A stretch of DNA of 35,282 bases from a virus: positions 1 to 35,282 of the IMG/VR virus record IMGVR_UViG_3300040751_000396. One strand, written 5' to 3'. Under the pieces are notes generated by a model. The model saw nothing but the letters and a program-made list of their open reading frames with translations, had not been told where the DNA came from and ran no database searches. The position numbers and the translations under genes were made by a program. Within the stretch, counting starts at the first letter, position 1, and each line of letters starts with the position of its first letter. Below are positions 4,909 to 9,939 of this stretch, piece after piece.

Positions 4909-5550
4909 TTACTCCCAAAACCACTTTTGTGATGCGGCATCCCAATCACGATTATATAAATTACGATGAAGCATAATCATGCGATGCATTTTTTCGATAG
5001 CATCATCAGCATTTTCTTCTGGTGTCGAGCCATCAGTATCTTTGTGAAAACCAAACCTTAGTTCTTGAGCAATTTCTTTCTGGCAGACTAGAATAAAATC
5101 TTCTTCCTTTGGAATTTGCGAATAAACATTTTGTGTATTCCAATCAAAAGGCTTGTCATTAATATCGGTTGCATCTTCAGCCCAGCCGTAATCGGTTGGG
5201 TCAAAGCCCATGCCTAAATCAAGAATACTGCCATTATATTCCCAATCTCCAACACCCCAGAAAAAAGATATGTCTAATTTTTTACCTTTTAGATCGTTAT
5301 CTGTGGCAACAATTCTTTCGATGCTAACTCTATCTGCTTCCGGCTCATCGTTATTTCGCTTTTCGAGTTCTGCACCGTAAGCTTCTAAGACAGGTCGGCA
5401 AAGCTTTTCTGCTTCTTCATTGTAAAACGTAGCAACAGTTTGCATTTCTGTGTGCATATTTTCATCAAAAGCATCCATATCAACATGGCCTGTGCCTGTG
5501 AATTTAATTTCACCCTGATAAAACAGTTCTTTTATATAGTCTATTTTCAT
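4909..5550 (-). CDS. Hypothetical acidic protein in recombination operon
   Basis: This encodes 213 residues from the ATG that overlaps the upstream stop as ATGA and follows GGGAGAAG. A longer reading from 5583 is not needed. The protein is acidic and aromatic-rich. It has a distinctive Trp/Gly/Asp block around residues 95-140 (FFWGVGDWEYNG, MGFDPTDYGW). The helical C-terminus ends in WFWE. I see no catalytic motif or known domain. The tight coupling to recombination genes suggests a shared early role. Confidence 0.6.
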   Translation of the reverse strand: MKIDYIKELFYQGEIKFTGTGHVDMDAFDENMHTEMQTVATFYNEEAEKLCRPVLEAYGAELEKRNNDEPEADRVSIERIVATDNDLKGKKLDISFFWGVGDWEYNGSILDLGMGFDPTDYGWAEDATDINDKPFDWNTQNVYSQIPKEEDFILVCQKEIAQELRFGFHKDTDGSTPEENADDAIEKMHRMIMLHRNLYNRDWDAASQKWFWE

Positions 5551-5888
5551 ACTTCTTCTCCCTTGTAGAATGGTGTAGCCCACATAACAAGCTGGCCTCT
5601 GCCTGACTTGCCCCTACGTTTGCGATCATCAACTTTTATCAAGCCTTTTTCTTTTAACTGCTTGTATCTTGCGGTGATCGTGCTATATCGATGATGCGGC
5701 AGGGCATCCTGTACCTCGTCAGAGATGCACCCTGCTGCACCAAACATTTCAATCGCATCCAGAACCACTTGCTCCATGTAGTTTGCGTCTATGCTTTTAG
5801 CCGCATCCTTGCTGGTTTGTGGATCATTACGCCTTGCTAGTTTGTAGGCTGGCGTATCAAACAGATCGACTATTTCACCCTTGTGCAT
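5547..5888 (-). CDS. Winged-helix DNA-binding protein
   Basis: This encodes 113 residues. After a charged N-terminus with ARRNDPQTSKDAA, a phrase common in small phage proteins near recombination genes, residues about 38-90 form a winged helix. A helix covers VVLDAIEMFG, a helix-turn-helix runs through SDEVQDAL...YSTITARYKQLKEKGLI, and a basic hairpin DRKRRGKSGRGQ follows. GGGAGG sits 7 bases before the ATG. It overlaps both neighbours. It may load onto DNA or regulate the operon. Related proteins are often annotated only as hypothetical. Confidence 0.6.
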   Translation of the reverse strand: MHKGEIVDLFDTPAYKLARRNDPQTSKDAAKSIDANYMEQVVLDAIEMFGAAGCISDEVQDALPHHRYSTITARYKQLKEKGLIKVDDRKRRGKSGRGQLVMWATPFYKGEEV

Positions 5889-6112
5889 ATCCAGCCTCCC
5901 ACTTCCTTATTGAACTTGGTCTTGATATGACCTTTGCCAAAGGCAGCGTGCGCTGCTGAATGAACAGAATTGCGGTCATCCTTGCTGTAGGCAACGATAT
6001 AATCGTTAACATCAAGCGATCTCACTGTTTTGATGATATCGCCATGCTTGGCTTCAGAGAACTGCTTTTCTCTGCCGACAGCTTTATTCCATAGTCTCAA
6101 TAGATAATACAT
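5870..6112 (-). CDS. Hypothetical small protein
   Basis: This encodes 80 residues if it begins at the ATG that overlaps the exonuclease stop by one base (TAATG). An ATG four codons upstream lies inside the exonuclease gene and is less favoured. The sequence starts with a hydrophobic stretch (MYYLLRLW). It contains a possible DNA-contacting segment rich in His and Lys (SVHSAAHAAFGKGHIKTKF) and ends basic. No family is recognised. Overlaps on both sides show that it belongs to the recombination operon. Confidence 0.5.
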   Translation of the reverse strand: MYYLLRLWNKAVGREKQFSEAKHGDIIKTVRSLDVNDYIVAYSKDDRNSVHSAAHAAFGKGHIKTKFNKEVGGWICTRVK

Positions 6113-7002
6113 TAGATACTCCATGCCTGTTTAGCTAGTGTTACGATTGATGGCCCATGCCTACGCGCTATTTCGTTTATGTCCGGCTGGACAAGACCAA
6201 ACAACGTATTCCATGAGCCGTTAGCGGCCTTCAACAAGTTCTGAGTGATTACCCAGCTTTGAACGGCCTCATTGTAAGCGCGGTTCAGATTAGCCTCTGA
6301 CAACGCTTCACAATTTTCTGGTGTGCAGATATGGTAGCCTGATCCTGTAACGAACAGCAATGCTGGTGTTTCGCCAGTAGCCTTCCAATAGATTGATTGT
6401 TGTACGACTTGCTGCCAAGTGGGTTCGGTCTTTGGCTTTGGTGTGCGCCAAGTTCTTGTGCCATCTTTCTTGACAGGATTACGCATTGGTAGTGAGCATT
6501 TAAGATCGATCTGTGTACCAGCCCCACTAAAATCTTGGTACAACATAATAGGCACATCACTCTTTGGCTCATCAAGCCAACGCTGATGCTCTCCGGCAAT
6601 TTGGTTTGCGCCTTGGAAAAACTCATTCACCCCAGCGATAGAATGAGCCATCATTTCTGGCAACACTTCACGAAACGCATCATATTCTTCTGCGTCCTTG
6701 CCATCATCCCAATCACGCGGTTTATATTCATCATACTTAGCCATCATATGTCTGGTGGCTTCAGCAATGGGCATACCTTCTTGCTGCCCGATGATCTCAT
6801 TATAGTCTTGCAAACCAAGCGCAAGGTTCGCGCCATGCTGCACAGATATGCCAGCCCAAGGTCTAGCTGCCATAGGGAAATTCATTTTATGCTCTTTACG
6901 CAACCACAACTTCAAGAACATTTCATCCTTGGTTGCAGTAGCCCCAGACGCACTGTCATGGTAATATCCCATGTCCTTTAGTGATACAGGTGCTTCTTTC
7001 AT
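6112..7002 (-). CDS. RecB/Cas4-like PD-(D/E)XK exonuclease
   Basis: This encodes 296 residues from the ATG at 7002, which is preceded by AGAAAGAG. An in-frame ATG at 7062 would fall in the operator region. Nuclease motifs are visible: His56, a probable acidic Glu138 (GEHQRW), Asp157, then Asp166-Leu-Lys168 (IDLKCS) as the metal-binding and catalytic motif. Gln201-x3-Tyr205 (QxxxY) follows, as in RecB and Cas4 nucleases. It would resect DNA ends to feed the annealing protein of the same operon, like a Red exonuclease. It is the first gene behind the leftward promoter. Assignment to the fold is fairly safe; direction of digestion cannot be told. Confidence 0.75.
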   Translation of the reverse strand: MKEAPVSLKDMGYYHDSASGATATKDEMFLKLWLRKEHKMNFPMAARPWAGISVQHGANLALGLQDYNEIIGQQEGMPIAEATRHMMAKYDEYKPRDWDDGKDAEEYDAFREVLPEMMAHSIAGVNEFFQGANQIAGEHQRWLDEPKSDVPIMLYQDFSGAGTQIDLKCSLPMRNPVKKDGTRTWRTPKPKTEPTWQQVVQQSIYWKATGETPALLFVTGSGYHICTPENCEALSEANLNRAYNEAVQSWVITQNLLKAANGSWNTLFGLVQPDINEIARRHGPSIVTLAKQAWSI

Positions 7003-7020
7003 AATGTCTCTTTCTGTATT

Positions 7021-7035
7021 AAAACGTATCGTTTT
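7021..7035. promoter_or_regulatory. Perfect palindrome, candidate operator near exonuclease start
   Basis: The sequence AAAACG-TAT-CGTTTT is a perfect 6-3-6 inverted repeat. It sits between the leftward -35 region and the start of the exonuclease gene, so a bound regulator would block leftward transcription. Candidates for binding are the Cro-like protein encoded just to the right or the HTH proteins of the operon. Confidence 0.5.
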
Positions 7036-7066
7036 GTTCAATGTGTAAACAATCAGTAGCAAGTAA

Positions 7067-7081
7067 TTGACAGCCTGTCAA
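7067..7081. promoter_or_regulatory. Palindromic operator overlapping divergent -35 boxes
   Basis: TTGACAG-C-CTGTCAA is a perfect 7-1-7 palindrome containing a consensus sigma-70 -35 hexamer (TTGACA) on each strand. Rightward, about 17 bases later, AT-rich sequence (CATAAA at 7090-7095) can act as -10 just before the Cro-like gene. Leftward, about 17 bases away, TACTGA is a weak -10. One dimer bound here would shut both early promoters, as in compact phage switches. Confidence 0.6.
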
Positions 7082-7101
7082 CACTCAGGCATAAATAAAT
7101 T

Positions 7102-7299
7102 ATGACGTTAAACGATTACATATCATCAAAGGGTATCAGCCAAGCAAAGATGGCAAGGCGGTGCGGGTTGTCTCGCTCTGCCATTTGTCTTCTGCTTTCT
7201 GGCAAGCGGTTCCCTACCGCAGAAACAATGCGCCGGATATTTTTAGCAACTAACGGTGAGGTAAAGCCAAATGACTTCTTTGACCAAGCCATGCAGTAA
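7102..7299 (+). CDS. Cro/C1-type HTH repressor
   Basis: This encodes 65 residues, about Cro length. Residues 11-45 form an HTH_3/XRE domain (GISQAKMARRCGLSRSAICLLLSGKRFP) with helix 2 and recognition helix 3 clear. A short tail ends in DFFDQAMQ. It lies 20 bases to the right of the divergent palindrome, so it probably binds there and controls both early operons. No dimerisation or cleavage domain is present, so it is Cro-like rather than CI-like. Its last 29 bases form one arm of the direct repeat that flanks the PAPS-reductase gene. Confidence 0.8.
   Translation: MTLNDYISSKGISQAKMARRCGLSRSAICLLLSGKRFPTAETMRRIFLATNGEVKPNDFFDQAMQ
7271..7299 (+). repeat. Left copy of 29-bp direct repeat flanking PAPS-reductase gene
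   Basis: This 29-base segment runs from the ATG of the PAPS-reductase gene to the stop of the Cro-like gene. It matches 8128-8156 at 27 of 29 positions. In one frame it encodes the repressor tail (xFFxQAMQ and stop). In the other frame it encodes the first nine residues of the following gene (MxSLTKPCS). Confidence 0.85.
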
Positions 7300-8131
7300 T
7301 CCATATATTCTTCCAGAGGGGAATGTGCAGATTAGTTTTTCTGGCGGAAGAACGTCAGCTTATATGTTGTATAAAATACTTGAGGCCAACAATGGGTTGC
7401 CTGATAACGCAGTTGTTTCATTCCAAAACACCGGCAGGGAAATGCCGCAGACTTTGGACTTTGTGCAAGAAGTTTCTGAACGGTGGAACGTGCCTATAGT
7501 ATGGCTTGAGTATGACCGTATTGACGGTAAACCGGCGGCTTCTGTCGTTAGCCATAATTCTGCAAGTAGGGCGGGTGAACCGTTTGAAAAAATTATTGAA
7601 GCAAAAAAAGTTTTACCTAACACGCTTATGAGGTTCTGCACTGTTGAGTTAAAGATAAATACAGCCAAACGATATTTAAAAAAGTTGGGCTGGAAAGAGT
7701 GGAGCAATGCTGTTGGTATAAGGGCTGATGAACCAAACAGGTTGTCTCGCGCACCTAAAAAAGATTGTTGGGTTCCTTGGAGGCCATTAGTCTTGGCAAA
7801 TGTAGGTAACAATCAGATAAGTGAGTTTTGGAAAACGCAACCATTTAATTTACTTCTACCAGTCAGCAACGGTAGAACAATGTATGGGAATTGTGACGGA
7901 TGTTTTTTAAAGTCAGAATCTCAGCTTGTGATGCTTGCTAGGGAACATCCAGAAAAATACGATTGGTGGGTGCGGCAAGAGCAGAACCACCAGCATAGGG
8001 GCGATTGGGGCTTTTTTCAACGGAATAGACCGCTTGCGGAATTGCGTGATTTTATCAATGTGCAAGCTGATTGGGTATTTGATGAAGAAGGTTATTTTTG
8101 TCAAGCAGATGGCGGGGAGTGTACTGGATGA
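7271..8131 (+). CDS. PAPS-reductase-family PP-loop protein
   Basis: This encodes 286 residues. The ATP pyrophosphatase PP-loop SGGRTS is at residues 24-29, inside SFSGGRTSAYML. NTGREMP follows as in adenylyl-sulfate reductases, then RFCTVELK with Cys123. GIRADEPNR comes later, and GNCDGCFLKS with Cys208 and Cys211. The last two cysteine sites and Cys residues near the C-terminus could hold a metal or Fe-S cluster. Known relatives in phages and in DNA phosphorothioation systems (DndC) activate sulfate or nucleotides, but the phage enzyme's substrate is not known. GAGG precedes the ATG. The first nine residues come from the repeat, so the N-terminus seems to be a junction product. Confidence 0.8.
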   Translation: MTSLTKPCSNPYILPEGNVQISFSGGRTSAYMLYKILEANNGLPDNAVVSFQNTGREMPQTLDFVQEVSERWNVPIVWLEYDRIDGKPAASVVSHNSASRAGEPFEKIIEAKKVLPNTLMRFCTVELKINTAKRYLKKLGWKEWSNAVGIRADEPNRLSRAPKKDCWVPWRPLVLANVGNNQISEFWKTQPFNLLLPVSNGRTMYGNCDGCFLKSESQLVMLAREHPEKYDWWVRQEQNHQHRGDWGFFQRNRPLAELRDFINVQADWVFDEEGYFCQADGGECTG

Positions 8132-8156
8132 TTTCTTTAACCAAGCCATGCAGTAA
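8128..8156 (+). repeat. Right copy of 29-bp direct repeat
   Basis: This is the second arm of the repeat, 857 bases from the first. It opens the DnaJ-type zinc-protein gene and, in another frame, still carries the DFFNQAMQ-stop ending seen in the Cro-like gene. That leftover ending has no role in the present gene order. It is best explained as a scar of the ancestral junction between the repressor and the zinc protein. Confidence 0.85.
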
Positions 8157-8397
8157 ATGCAAGGGCAAAGGTTTCTCTTATGTCAGGGATTACTTCGATC
8201 CTACTGAGGTCGTACCGGAAGACTGCGAATATTGTGATGGCTCTGGTAAAGTGTCTCACATAATTCAGCAAGGCGATGGCTCTTTTGCTAAACGGTTAGC
8301 CAACGATACTTGTGTTAGATGTAACACATTTCTTGATGGTGCGTTACAATGTAGAACTTGCAACCTTGTTTATGGTGATAAAAATGGGAAAGCCTAA
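8128..8397 (+). CDS. DnaJ-type double zinc-ribbon protein
   Basis: This encodes 89 residues from the ATG that overlaps the upstream stop (ATGA); an in-frame ATG at 8098 is inside the PAPS-reductase gene. Cys8-x2-Cys11-KGKG and Cys33-x2-Cys36-DGSG make the DnaJ-type CxxCxGxG pair. Cys62/Cys65 and Cys75/Cys78 form a second four-cysteine site. It is probably a small two-zinc protein that binds protein or nucleic acid. It sits between a sulfur-transfer type enzyme and a nuclease. The zinc sites are clear; the partner is not known. Confidence 0.65.
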   Translation: MISLTKPCSKCKGKGFSYVRDYFDPTEVVPEDCEYCDGSGKVSHIIQQGDGSFAKRLANDTCVRCNTFLDGALQCRTCNLVYGDKNGKA

Positions 8398-8620
8398 AGG
8401 TTTAATGGTTAAGCGTTCAATGGTGGAATATCAACCGTTGGTTAGCTTTGAATACAACAAACAAAAAGAGCGTGATAAAAAAGCATGGCAAGATATCTCT
8501 GATAGTCTGCCTGATAATGCTTTTGCTGATGATGTTGTGCCTGATGACAATGAAACCTACGGTAAGGTAGATAAAAAACCATTTCATTTAGAAACAGAGA
8601 TTAGTCACTATGACGGATAG
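8384..8620 (+). CDS. Small acidic hypothetical protein
   Basis: This encodes 78 residues from the ATG that overlaps the zinc-protein stop by 14 bases; a longer reading from 8312 would lie within that gene. After a basic start (GKPKGLMVKRSM), residues 20-45 look helical and charged. The C-terminal half is very acidic (DDVVPDDNETYG), which could mimic DNA or bind a basic partner. No family is recognised. It overlaps the nuclease gene downstream by 11 bases, so it belongs to the short rightward early operon. Confidence 0.5.
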   Translation: MGKPKGLMVKRSMVEYQPLVSFEYNKQKERDKKAWQDISDSLPDNAFADDVVPDDNETYGKVDKKPFHLETEISHYDG

Positions 8621-9017
8621 TCGGCAAAAAGGTGCAGCTTTTGAAAGAAGCATAATCAACGCCATCAAAGACAGCCTTGGCGATAAGCTTGTTGAAACGC
8701 CGAAGCGCAATCTCTCTCAATATCAGATCAAAGGCGAAGCAGATATTGTTATCCCTGGATGGTCGATAGAATGTAAGGCTTACGCTAACACTGGTGGCGT
8801 ATACAAAGAAGCTTGGTGGCAACAGGCTATCGAAGCCGCTGCAAACACTGACCGCTTCCCTGTTTTGATCTATAAATTTAACAACAGGCCGATCCGCTGC
8901 GTGCTACAACTCATGGCTGTTTGTCGTAATTTCTCTTATGATCCTGATCTTACTTGCGAAATCTCTCTTGAAACTTGGCTTCACATTGCGCGTGAAAGTT
9001 ATGGGGTTGACAGCTAA
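8610..9017 (+). CDS. Hjc-like PD-(D/E)XK nuclease, putative Holliday-junction resolvase
   Basis: This encodes 135 residues. It starts with KGAAFERSI (Glu12), then KGEADIVIPGWSIECKAY with Asp45 and the Glu54-x-Lys56 catalytic pair. This is the E...D...ExK order of archaeal-type Hjc resolvases and related small phage nucleases. The length fits a single nuclease domain. It would resolve branched DNA made by the recombination operon before packaging, or act as a restriction-like nuclease. It is the last gene of the rightward early operon and is followed by hairpins at 9117-9167. Confidence 0.7.
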   Translation: MTDSRQKGAAFERSIINAIKDSLGDKLVETPKRNLSQYQIKGEADIVIPGWSIECKAYANTGGVYKEAWWQQAIEAAANTDRFPVLIYKFNNRPIRCVLQLMAVCRNFSYDPDLTCEISLETWLHIARESYGVDS

Positions 9018-9069
9018 TTTGGCCTCGATATAATCAGCTTTGCTGCTTTACTGCAATGACACGCGGCAA

Positions 9070-9084
9070 CAATGCAGTGCATTG
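9070..9084. repeat. Perfect palindrome CAATGCA-G-TGCATTG
   Basis: This 7-1-7 inverted repeat lies in the 161-base gap between convergent operons. Related TGCATTGCA/CAATG words recur in the terminator stem at 9117-9148 and again in the noncoding region near 12460-12500. Possible roles are a protein-binding site or part of a plus-strand stem structure. It is not followed by a T-run, so it is not a terminator by itself. Confidence 0.5.
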
Positions 9085-9109
9085 ATACTATTCTTTGATA
9101 AATTTCTAT

Positions 9110-9148
9110 AAAAAAAAGCACTGCAATGATGTAGTGCATTGCAGTGCT
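9110..9148 (-). terminator. Rho-independent terminator of leftward operon 9179-12277
   Basis: The stem AGCACTGCAATG/CATTGCAGTGCT is 12 base pairs with an 8-base loop (arms 9117-9128 and 9137-9148). On the minus strand it is followed by a run of eight T. It lies about 30 bases past the stop of the leftward acyltransferase gene, the expected place for the operon end. Confidence 0.8.
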
Positions 9149-9151
9149 AGT

Positions 9152-9178
9152 AATGCCACGCGGCATTGCATAGGTTTT
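9152..9178 (+). terminator. Possible weak rightward terminator
   Basis: The stem AATGCC/GGCATT with loop ACGC (9152-9167) is followed by GCATAGGTTTTCT. The T-run is short and displaced by several bases, so this is a weak candidate for stopping the rightward early transcript. The large stem at 9117-9148 would also be read on this strand but lacks a T-run there. Confidence 0.35.
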
Positions 9179-9724
9179 CTAATCTAAAATAATTTCTCCG
9201 TGAACTAAATCTTGTAGCTCGTTCAAGGTTTGTTTTGTAAAGCGCATTTCCTCTTCAGTTGGTTGTAATCCATTAACGCAAACCCACTGCACTAAACCAT
9301 CAACGCTGCCGCTATCATACTTTGCAGCCCTAGCTTTTTGTATGTGAAAGCCAGCGGCTTTAAGAGATGCGCCAGATTCGTATGGTTGAGTATAAGTTAT
9401 TAAAACTCTATACCCCATAGCAAAACAAGCTTGTCTAGCTTTACCTAATAAAAAACTGGCAAGAGGCAAATTTTTCTCTGTTACACAATCTTCTTCAGCA
9501 ATACACAAACGCCTCACTTCTGCGTGATCCCTGCGTTTTGACCATGCAGAAGAACACCTGTCTACAGTCACCACTCCATACATTTGTTTAGCTGTGTAAA
9601 AATGATTAACAGGACTAGCACCTATGCTGAACATATGTCTTTTTAATGGCGGTGAGTGTCGATGGTATTCGTCAACAAACTCTTGAGCCTCAACAAGTTT
9701 TAATCTGTGATGATATAATTTCAT
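9179..9724 (-). CDS. XF1762-type GNAT-like acyltransferase
   Basis: This encodes 181 residues. Diagnostic strings are EYHRHSPPLKRHMFSIGA (about 19-36), EVRRLCI (about 69-75) and a block YRVLITYTQPYESGASLKAAGF (about 105-126). This order is that of the phage and bacterial XF1762 family, a GNAT-like fold of unknown substrate. The ITY...GASL...AGF part corresponds to the acetyl-CoA-binding core and C-terminal strand of GNAT enzymes. It starts on the stop of the XRE-regulator gene, whose last codons contain the ACTAGCAAA leader motif. It ends the leftward cassette operon, just before a strong terminator. Confidence 0.7.
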   Translation of the reverse strand: MKLYHHRLKLVEAQEFVDEYHRHSPPLKRHMFSIGASPVNHFYTAKQMYGVVTVDRCSSAWSKRRDHAEVRRLCIAEEDCVTEKNLPLASFLLGKARQACFAMGYRVLITYTQPYESGASLKAAGFHIQKARAAKYDSGSVDGLVQWVCVNGLQPTEEEMRFTKQTLNELQDLVHGEIILD

Positions 9725-9939
9725 TAATTCTTCCCTCTCTCTTTTGCTAGTTCTTCGTTACGCTCTAAAATGGCGTTTCTCTTTAAGGCTTCGTGTAACA
9801 TGATTACAGGCTTTGGTATTTGCCTTTCCCCCATTTCATAACGCTGATATGTTCTAAGCCCTACGCCTAGTCGTTCTGCCATTTTTGATTGGCTTATCCC
9901 TAGCTGCAATCTTTCCAGCTTGATCTTTGTCGTTTCCAT
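9724..9939 (-). CDS. XRE-family HTH regulator
   Basis: This encodes 71 residues. Residues 10-45 form an HTH_3 domain (LGISQSKMAERLGVGLRTYQ then RYEMGERQIPK). The C-terminal tail is a charged helix ending in ELAKERGKN. It overlaps the start of the acyltransferase gene by one base. The pair resembles an HTH plus GNAT two-gene module, which is known in some toxin-antitoxin systems, but here the order and the XF1762 family differ from the standard ones. The leader contains one copy of the ACTAGCAAA motif about 34 bases before the ATG and a nearer GTAAAGAAAGG site. Confidence 0.75.
   Translation of the reverse strand: METTKIKLERLQLGISQSKMAERLGVGLRTYQRYEMGERQIPKPVIMLHEALKRNAILERNEELAKERGKN

Follow-up and report, generated by a model that had tools for sequence, protein, structure and literature searches.

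Insertion of a PAPS-reductase-like gene at the overlap of a Cro-like gene and a zinc-protein gene in an uncultivated phage, with the overlap left in two copies

In the viral DNA analysed here (the window, a 35,282-base virus record) a PAPS-reductase-like gene has very probably been inserted at an ancestral overlap of a Cro-like repressor gene and a zinc-protein gene by illegitimate recombination at boundary microhomologies, with selection keeping both neighbours. The entry of single genes into tightly overlapping phage operons mostly has to be deduced with no ancestral site at hand. In the present case an occupied site can be compared with a near-identical empty one, with a second site that was occupied independently and with a related PAPS lineage in other contexts, which reveals the joints to the base. 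The rule that follows is that two copies of an overlap must result when a gene is inserted into it, and that the newcomer may gain the N-terminus of its neighbour. The window carries terminase, head-tail adaptor and tail genes, and by this gene content it belongs to a podovirus-like, uncultivated tailed phage. The features of the junction are collected in Table 1.

Table 1. Features of the Cro-PAPS-zinc junction (positions of the window).
Feature	Position	Strand	Remarks
Cro-like HTH repressor gene	7102..7299	+	65 aa, ends NDFFDQAMQ-stop
Shine-Dalgarno-like GGTGAGGTA	7254..7262 (approximate)	+	inside Cro codons; putative ancestral zinc initiation region, now that of PAPS
Left repeat copy	7271..7299	+	functional Cro tail and captured zinc-gene start, now PAPS start
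PAPS-reductase-like gene (NinC-type PP-loop)	7271..8131	+	286 aa; residues 1-8 from zinc gene
Putative left joint	7295..7299	+	AGTAA: zinc TGC-AGT-AA/A vs PAPS (ATG)-AGT-AA/T-CC
PAPS 3' end GGGGAGTGTACTGGATGA	8114..8131	+	GECTG-stop with Shine-Dalgarno and ATGA start; candidate right joint at ATGA
Right repeat copy	8128..8156	+	functional zinc start and vestigial Cro tail DFFNQAMQ-stop
Zinc protein gene with CxxCxGxG repeats	8128..8397	+	89 aa

The Cro-like protein matches Pfam HTH_3 (9.6e-06) and the transcriptional repressor family phrog_35 (7.7e-11), and the PAPS-reductase-like protein matches Pfam PAPS_reduct (9.5e-07, above the gathering cut-off) and phrog_424 (3.9e-53). The match of the zinc protein to Pfam DnaJ_CXXCXGXG (9.6e-06) lies under the gathering cut-off. 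The Cro and PAPS genes overlap by 29 nt, the PAPS and zinc genes by 4 nt (ATGA). The insert between the Cro and zinc genes consists of the PAPS gene alone and holds no recombinase.

The 29-bp direct repeat described in the first-pass annotation is present: positions 7271-7299 (ATGACTTCTTTGACCAAGCCATGCAGTAA) and 8128-8156 (ATGATTTCTTTAACCAAGCCATGCAGTAA) match at 27 of 29 bases, and both copies can be read in two frames, as the Cro tail DFF(D/N)QAMQ-stop and as the zinc-protein start M(T/I)SLTKPCS. This pair is the longest direct repeat within 6500-9500; after first-order Markov shuffling of this 3-kb stretch (20 shuffles) the best 29-mer pair reaches 20-23 matches.

The ancestral Cro/zinc overlap and the empty-site phage, both predicted from the repeat, are found among relatives of the window. 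IMG/VR record 3300025769_000406 (G001, 34,696 bases) aligns with the window at 97% identity over 5500-7299 and at 94% over 8128-9177. It lacks the PAPS gene, is collinear with the window to 7299 and again from 8128, and carries one copy of the repeat, ATGATTTCTTTGACCAAGCCATGCAATAA; the two alignments share exactly positions 4992-5020 of G001, i.e. 29 bases. The Cro-like proteins of the two phages are identical (100% aa identity), and the zinc proteins share 93% of their residues. The junction of a more distant relative (G002, 77-83%) is also empty, with 23 bases common to its two alignments. Among 85 distinct Cro-like loci the Cro gene directly overlaps a CxxCxG zinc gene in 71, a nuclease gene taking this place in 10 and a PAPS gene in 3; the zinc gene of the 71 Cro-zinc loci starts 17-59 bases 5' of the Cro stop. 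A wider alignment-based scan of 96 Cro loci gave 76 with zinc, 10 with nuclease and 3 with PAPS genes. The conserved start of the zinc gene in the relatives is the AATGAC within the NDFF codons of Cro. The annotated phage collection yielded no relatives of the zinc protein and only weak ones of the Cro-like protein.

The PAPS gene appears to have taken over the ribosome-binding site, the start codon and the first eight codons of the zinc gene. Its nearest relatives (L092-L097, 92-94% identical) match the window protein only from residue 9 and begin with M(T/S)NPY(L/V)LPEG. The columns of residues 1-8 (MTSLTKPC) are almost empty in the alignment of 69 family members, and in the AlphaFold model these residues have pLDDT below 50, the predicted fold starting after them. 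The proposed comparison of the N-terminus with its relatives thus marks residues 1-8 as unique to the window protein, the closest relatives starting with M(T/S)NPY. It had been claimed that the first nine residues were taken from the zinc protein; this holds for residues 1-8, while Ser9 need not have this origin, because an AGT serine codon follows Met in some PAPS relatives too. The ATG at 7271 is the sole ATG before the conserved LPEG/PP-loop region (with TTG at codon 4 and GTG at codon 19). The sequence GGUGAGGUA pairs with the anti-Shine-Dalgarno at -7.3 kcal/mol, and (G/C/A)AGGT is kept before AATGAC in the relatives. The left joint was placed by comparison of the window, G001 and the PAPS relatives. 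It was set at AGTAA because Ser9 is common to the zinc protein (PCS) and some PAPS starts (MS-NPY); this joint comprises only 5 bases, and the nearest PAPS relatives have ATGACC or GTGAGC there.

At its other end the PAPS gene would provide the displaced zinc gene with a new Shine-Dalgarno sequence and an ATGA start. In the window GGGGAG is located 8 bases 5' of the zinc ATG, with an anti-Shine-Dalgarno energy of -7.7 kcal/mol. Genes of the PAPS family mostly end with G(E/D)C-T-G-stop, the stop overlapping the ATG of the next gene; such overlap with the next start is seen in 108 of 145 distinct PAPS genes (85 ATGA, 23 TRATG) and in 72 of 85 genes of a smaller set. Of 107 coupled PAPS genes, 100 have GGG or GGA as the tail glycine codon, versus 28% of the glycine codons elsewhere in the same genes. 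The corresponding number for uncoupled genes is 19 of 34 (Fisher p = 1.7e-6, where kin are counted as independent and the certainty is overstated). Tight coupling at overlaps of this kind was measured in 13 of 14 pairs from other organisms (PMC6728339). The same PAPS family is found in many other gene contexts. It can tentatively be proposed that NinC-type PAPS genes are portable translational cassettes, which can enter ahead of nearly any overlapping phage gene and leave the expression of that gene intact, because the conserved Cys-tail codons (GECTG-stop) double as Shine-Dalgarno sequence and ATGA; if true, this would explain the recurrence of one family at several operon junctions.

The Cro-zinc junction is occupied by PAPS genes in two other phages, L017 and L035, whose PAPS proteins are 56% identical to that of the window and 63% to each other. 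Both genes start from an ATG of their own, located at the stop of Cro (MMSNPYNLPDG and MMALSYNLPEG), and so their left joint is unlike that of the window. Strongly supported branches of the PAPS tree require two or more arrivals of PAPS at this place, and the carriers fall among phages with an empty site. The same holds, again on strongly supported branches, for a tree of the divergent gene next door (6112-7062), constructed without L035 (its record is too short). L035 displays the anatomy of the window independently: its right copy encodes, out of context, the EFFTQKMRGM-stop known from the Cro tails of the empty-site phages L046/L068, and it matches the one copy of these phages at 28/29 bases. 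The repeat of L017 is eroded (14/29, which alone is no different from chance), and the duplication there is argued from gene order alone. As judged from these sequences, another PAPS gene has evidently entered this junction on at least one further occasion.

The neighbour genes of the PAPS gene in L092-L097 are only ~30-40% identical to those of the window, and this contrast with the high identity of the PAPS protein means that PAPS moved as a single gene. Third-position identity to the same relatives is 66-74%, against 92-94% for the protein, which shows that the gene is under purifying selection. L121 is the better match for its first ~130 nt (7298-7430) and L118 for its last ~60 nt (8069-8131), while the middle resembles L092/L093. 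The PAPS gene is an intragenic mosaic and recombination within the family is frequent, so that parts of the allele originally inserted may have been replaced later. Relatives in bacterial genomes are mostly alphaproteobacterial and have at most 56% identity over the full length, with one match of 75% over 51 residues. A scan of viral contigs for the PAPS-tail/zinc-start joint returned only the known carriers L017 and L035, and no donor with PAPS directly upstream of the zinc allele of the window.

The Cro-like and zinc genes initially overlapped by ~30 bases, as in the relatives, and a PAPS-reductase-like gene from related phages entered this junction, as the empty site shows. Both joints would have formed at microhomologies of gene boundaries, AGTAA at the PAPS coding start and ATGA at the PAPS stop; the right joint is clear, and the left one is short and putative. 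Selection would retain only those joints that spare both neighbours. Cro cannot do without its final 29 bases, nor the zinc gene without its initial 29; the overlap is therefore kept twice, and the repeat would be a consequence of selection rather than a transposase footprint. The PAPS gene would now start from the internal Shine-Dalgarno sequence and ATG of the zinc gene, with the first eight residues of the latter, and its last six codons, which contain a Shine-Dalgarno sequence and ATGA, would supply the new start of the zinc gene. The left copy may then be the recipient allele and the right copy the donor allele, two related phages having recombined. Identity to G001 is 98.9% in the left flank, 89.6% in the right flank at 8157-8530 (374 bases) and 96.5% beyond. 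A joint of two parents is favoured over copying in place because the right flank diverges more from G001, and this faintly hints at a two-parent origin of the copies; the left-flank bins also dip to 85% against G001, other mosaic blocks occur in the genome, and the asymmetry of the flanks could be ordinary mosaicism. As for the duplication of the junction, proposed earlier, the overlap is indeed present twice, but two alleles may have been joined rather than one segment copied.

An in-place event in one recipient genome, where a staggered break or replication slippage copied the 29 bases at the capture of PAPS, is rather unlikely, albeit worth weighing, and differs from this explanation in the molecular step only (being similar to a target-site duplication). 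It agrees with the repeat flanking the insert exactly and with the 93% identity of the copies. However, no inverted repeats are found at the insert flanks (7240-8190), a feature looked for as a sign of transposon-type insertion, the insert contains no recombinase, both edges of the repeat are gene-boundary sequences (ATGA, AGTAA), the left joint of the other carriers lies elsewhere, at the Cro stop, and the divergence of the right flank suggests a second parent. It is improbable that PAPS between Cro and zinc is the older state and that recombination of the two 29-bp repeats removed it from phages of the G001 type. Perfect excision would leave exactly one copy, and Pope et al. could not exclude the same for Island3/Brujita (PMC3029335), but the site is empty at 76 of the 96 Cro loci, all close tree neighbours among them, and the PAPS versions at the junction differ in origin. 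Moreover, the G001 copy has T at position 5 and G at position 12, whereas the left copy of the window has C and G and the right one T and A; the G001 copy is not a single-crossover product, because the 5' part of such a product must come from the left copy. Such loss could happen from the present arrangement of the window and is an unlikely explanation of G001.

Even less credit can be given to a homing-like mobilisation of PAPS by the neighbouring PDDEXK nuclease: in relatives PAPS is often directly upstream of such a nuclease, but in the window the nuclease is two genes away. This candidate was rejected since empty-site phages (G001) carry the nuclease too, and it is therefore a fixed operon gene. 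That the repeat is a chance or convergent outcome of two similar gene starts is scarcely conceivable; the AATGA start context is common to the relatives, yet the 27/29 match includes the out-of-frame Cro tail and stands against 20-23 in the shuffles, and the single copy at the empty site of G001 refutes this explanation.

The closest precedent is gene 68 of Island3, an extra gene with respect to the near-identical Brujita, with a ~60-bp duplicated gene end that is present in one copy where the gene is absent (PMC3029335). As in the window, the gene is flanked by the duplicate and the empty relative has a single copy. In Island3 the duplicated segment is the 3' end of a gene, and gain and loss could not be told apart (PMC3029335), while in the window an overlap read in two frames is duplicated, most loci are empty and the start of the neighbour is captured. 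The present case is a well-documented variant of phage mosaicism, more informative than its precedent because the overlap is read in two frames, a start was captured and the junction was used repeatedly. The inserted gene had been described as a moron, and like phage morons it is a single extra gene between genes contiguous in relatives, absent from the junction of G001 and G002 and from the 76 empty loci of 96. The definition of a moron also includes its own promoter and terminator (PMC3029335), and in this respect the name does not fit. In a scan limited to sigma-70-type consensus, promoter-like and terminator-like sites occurred at chance numbers, with one 10/12 promoter-like match at the PAPS start (7280-7309) and terminator-like sites inside the gene; its expression appears to depend on translational overlap. 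In its main points the first-pass annotation was right, both the empty site and the unique residues 1-8 being in its favour.

The PAPS protein has the motifs SGGRTS (PP-loop), RFCT and GNCDGCF as well as a C-terminal Cys. It belongs to phrog_424 and is homologous to lambda NinC (32% over 214 columns, 5e-24); more distantly, it matches SspD of the phosphorothioation defence system (4.3e-19). None of the solved structures matched it by sequence, and the nearest solved fold is CysH, with partial Foldseek similarity (TM about 0.4-0.5). ECGxH is the C-terminal catalytic motif of CysH. The window protein has the PAPS_reduct domain of CysH but ends with GGECTG, where C284 is kept in 68 of 68 proteins and GxH is absent. 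The annotation and the domain are common to it and to viral cysH auxiliary metabolic genes, from which it differs by the only partial CysH fold similarity and by ECTG instead of ECGxH, and a role in sulfate assimilation is putative. Sulfur or adenylation chemistry is likely.

In lambda the homologous PP-loop protein is encoded by ninC of the ninR region, the 3' end of which, GGGAGGGAAGCTGCATGA, comprises a Shine-Dalgarno sequence and ATGA for ninD. The nin genes are joined by ATGA motifs (PMC8022706, citing Kroger and Hobom 1982). The order of lambda ninC-ninD (L208:1000-1100), a PAPS-like gene followed by a gene of a small CxxCxxC protein, is the same as in the window. In L037, L044/L124 and L061 PAPS is located directly after the zinc gene and overlaps its end, and in other phages directly upstream of a PDDEXK nuclease gene. 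Just 3' of the PAPS-containing operon of the window, on the opposite strand (9179-9724, -), lies the gene of a Mom-like DNA modification protein (phrog_1384, 1.1e-16; NCBIfam XF1762 family, 3e-28). The region 9007-9178 contains a 12/12 match to the sigma-70 consensus promoter (TTGACA-16-TATAAT) and then an intergenic stretch with the 15-bp palindrome CAATGCAGTGCATTG and the perfect 12-bp hairpin AGCACTGCAATG/CATTGCAGTGCT, which may serve as operator or terminator close to a second HTH gene (9724-9939).
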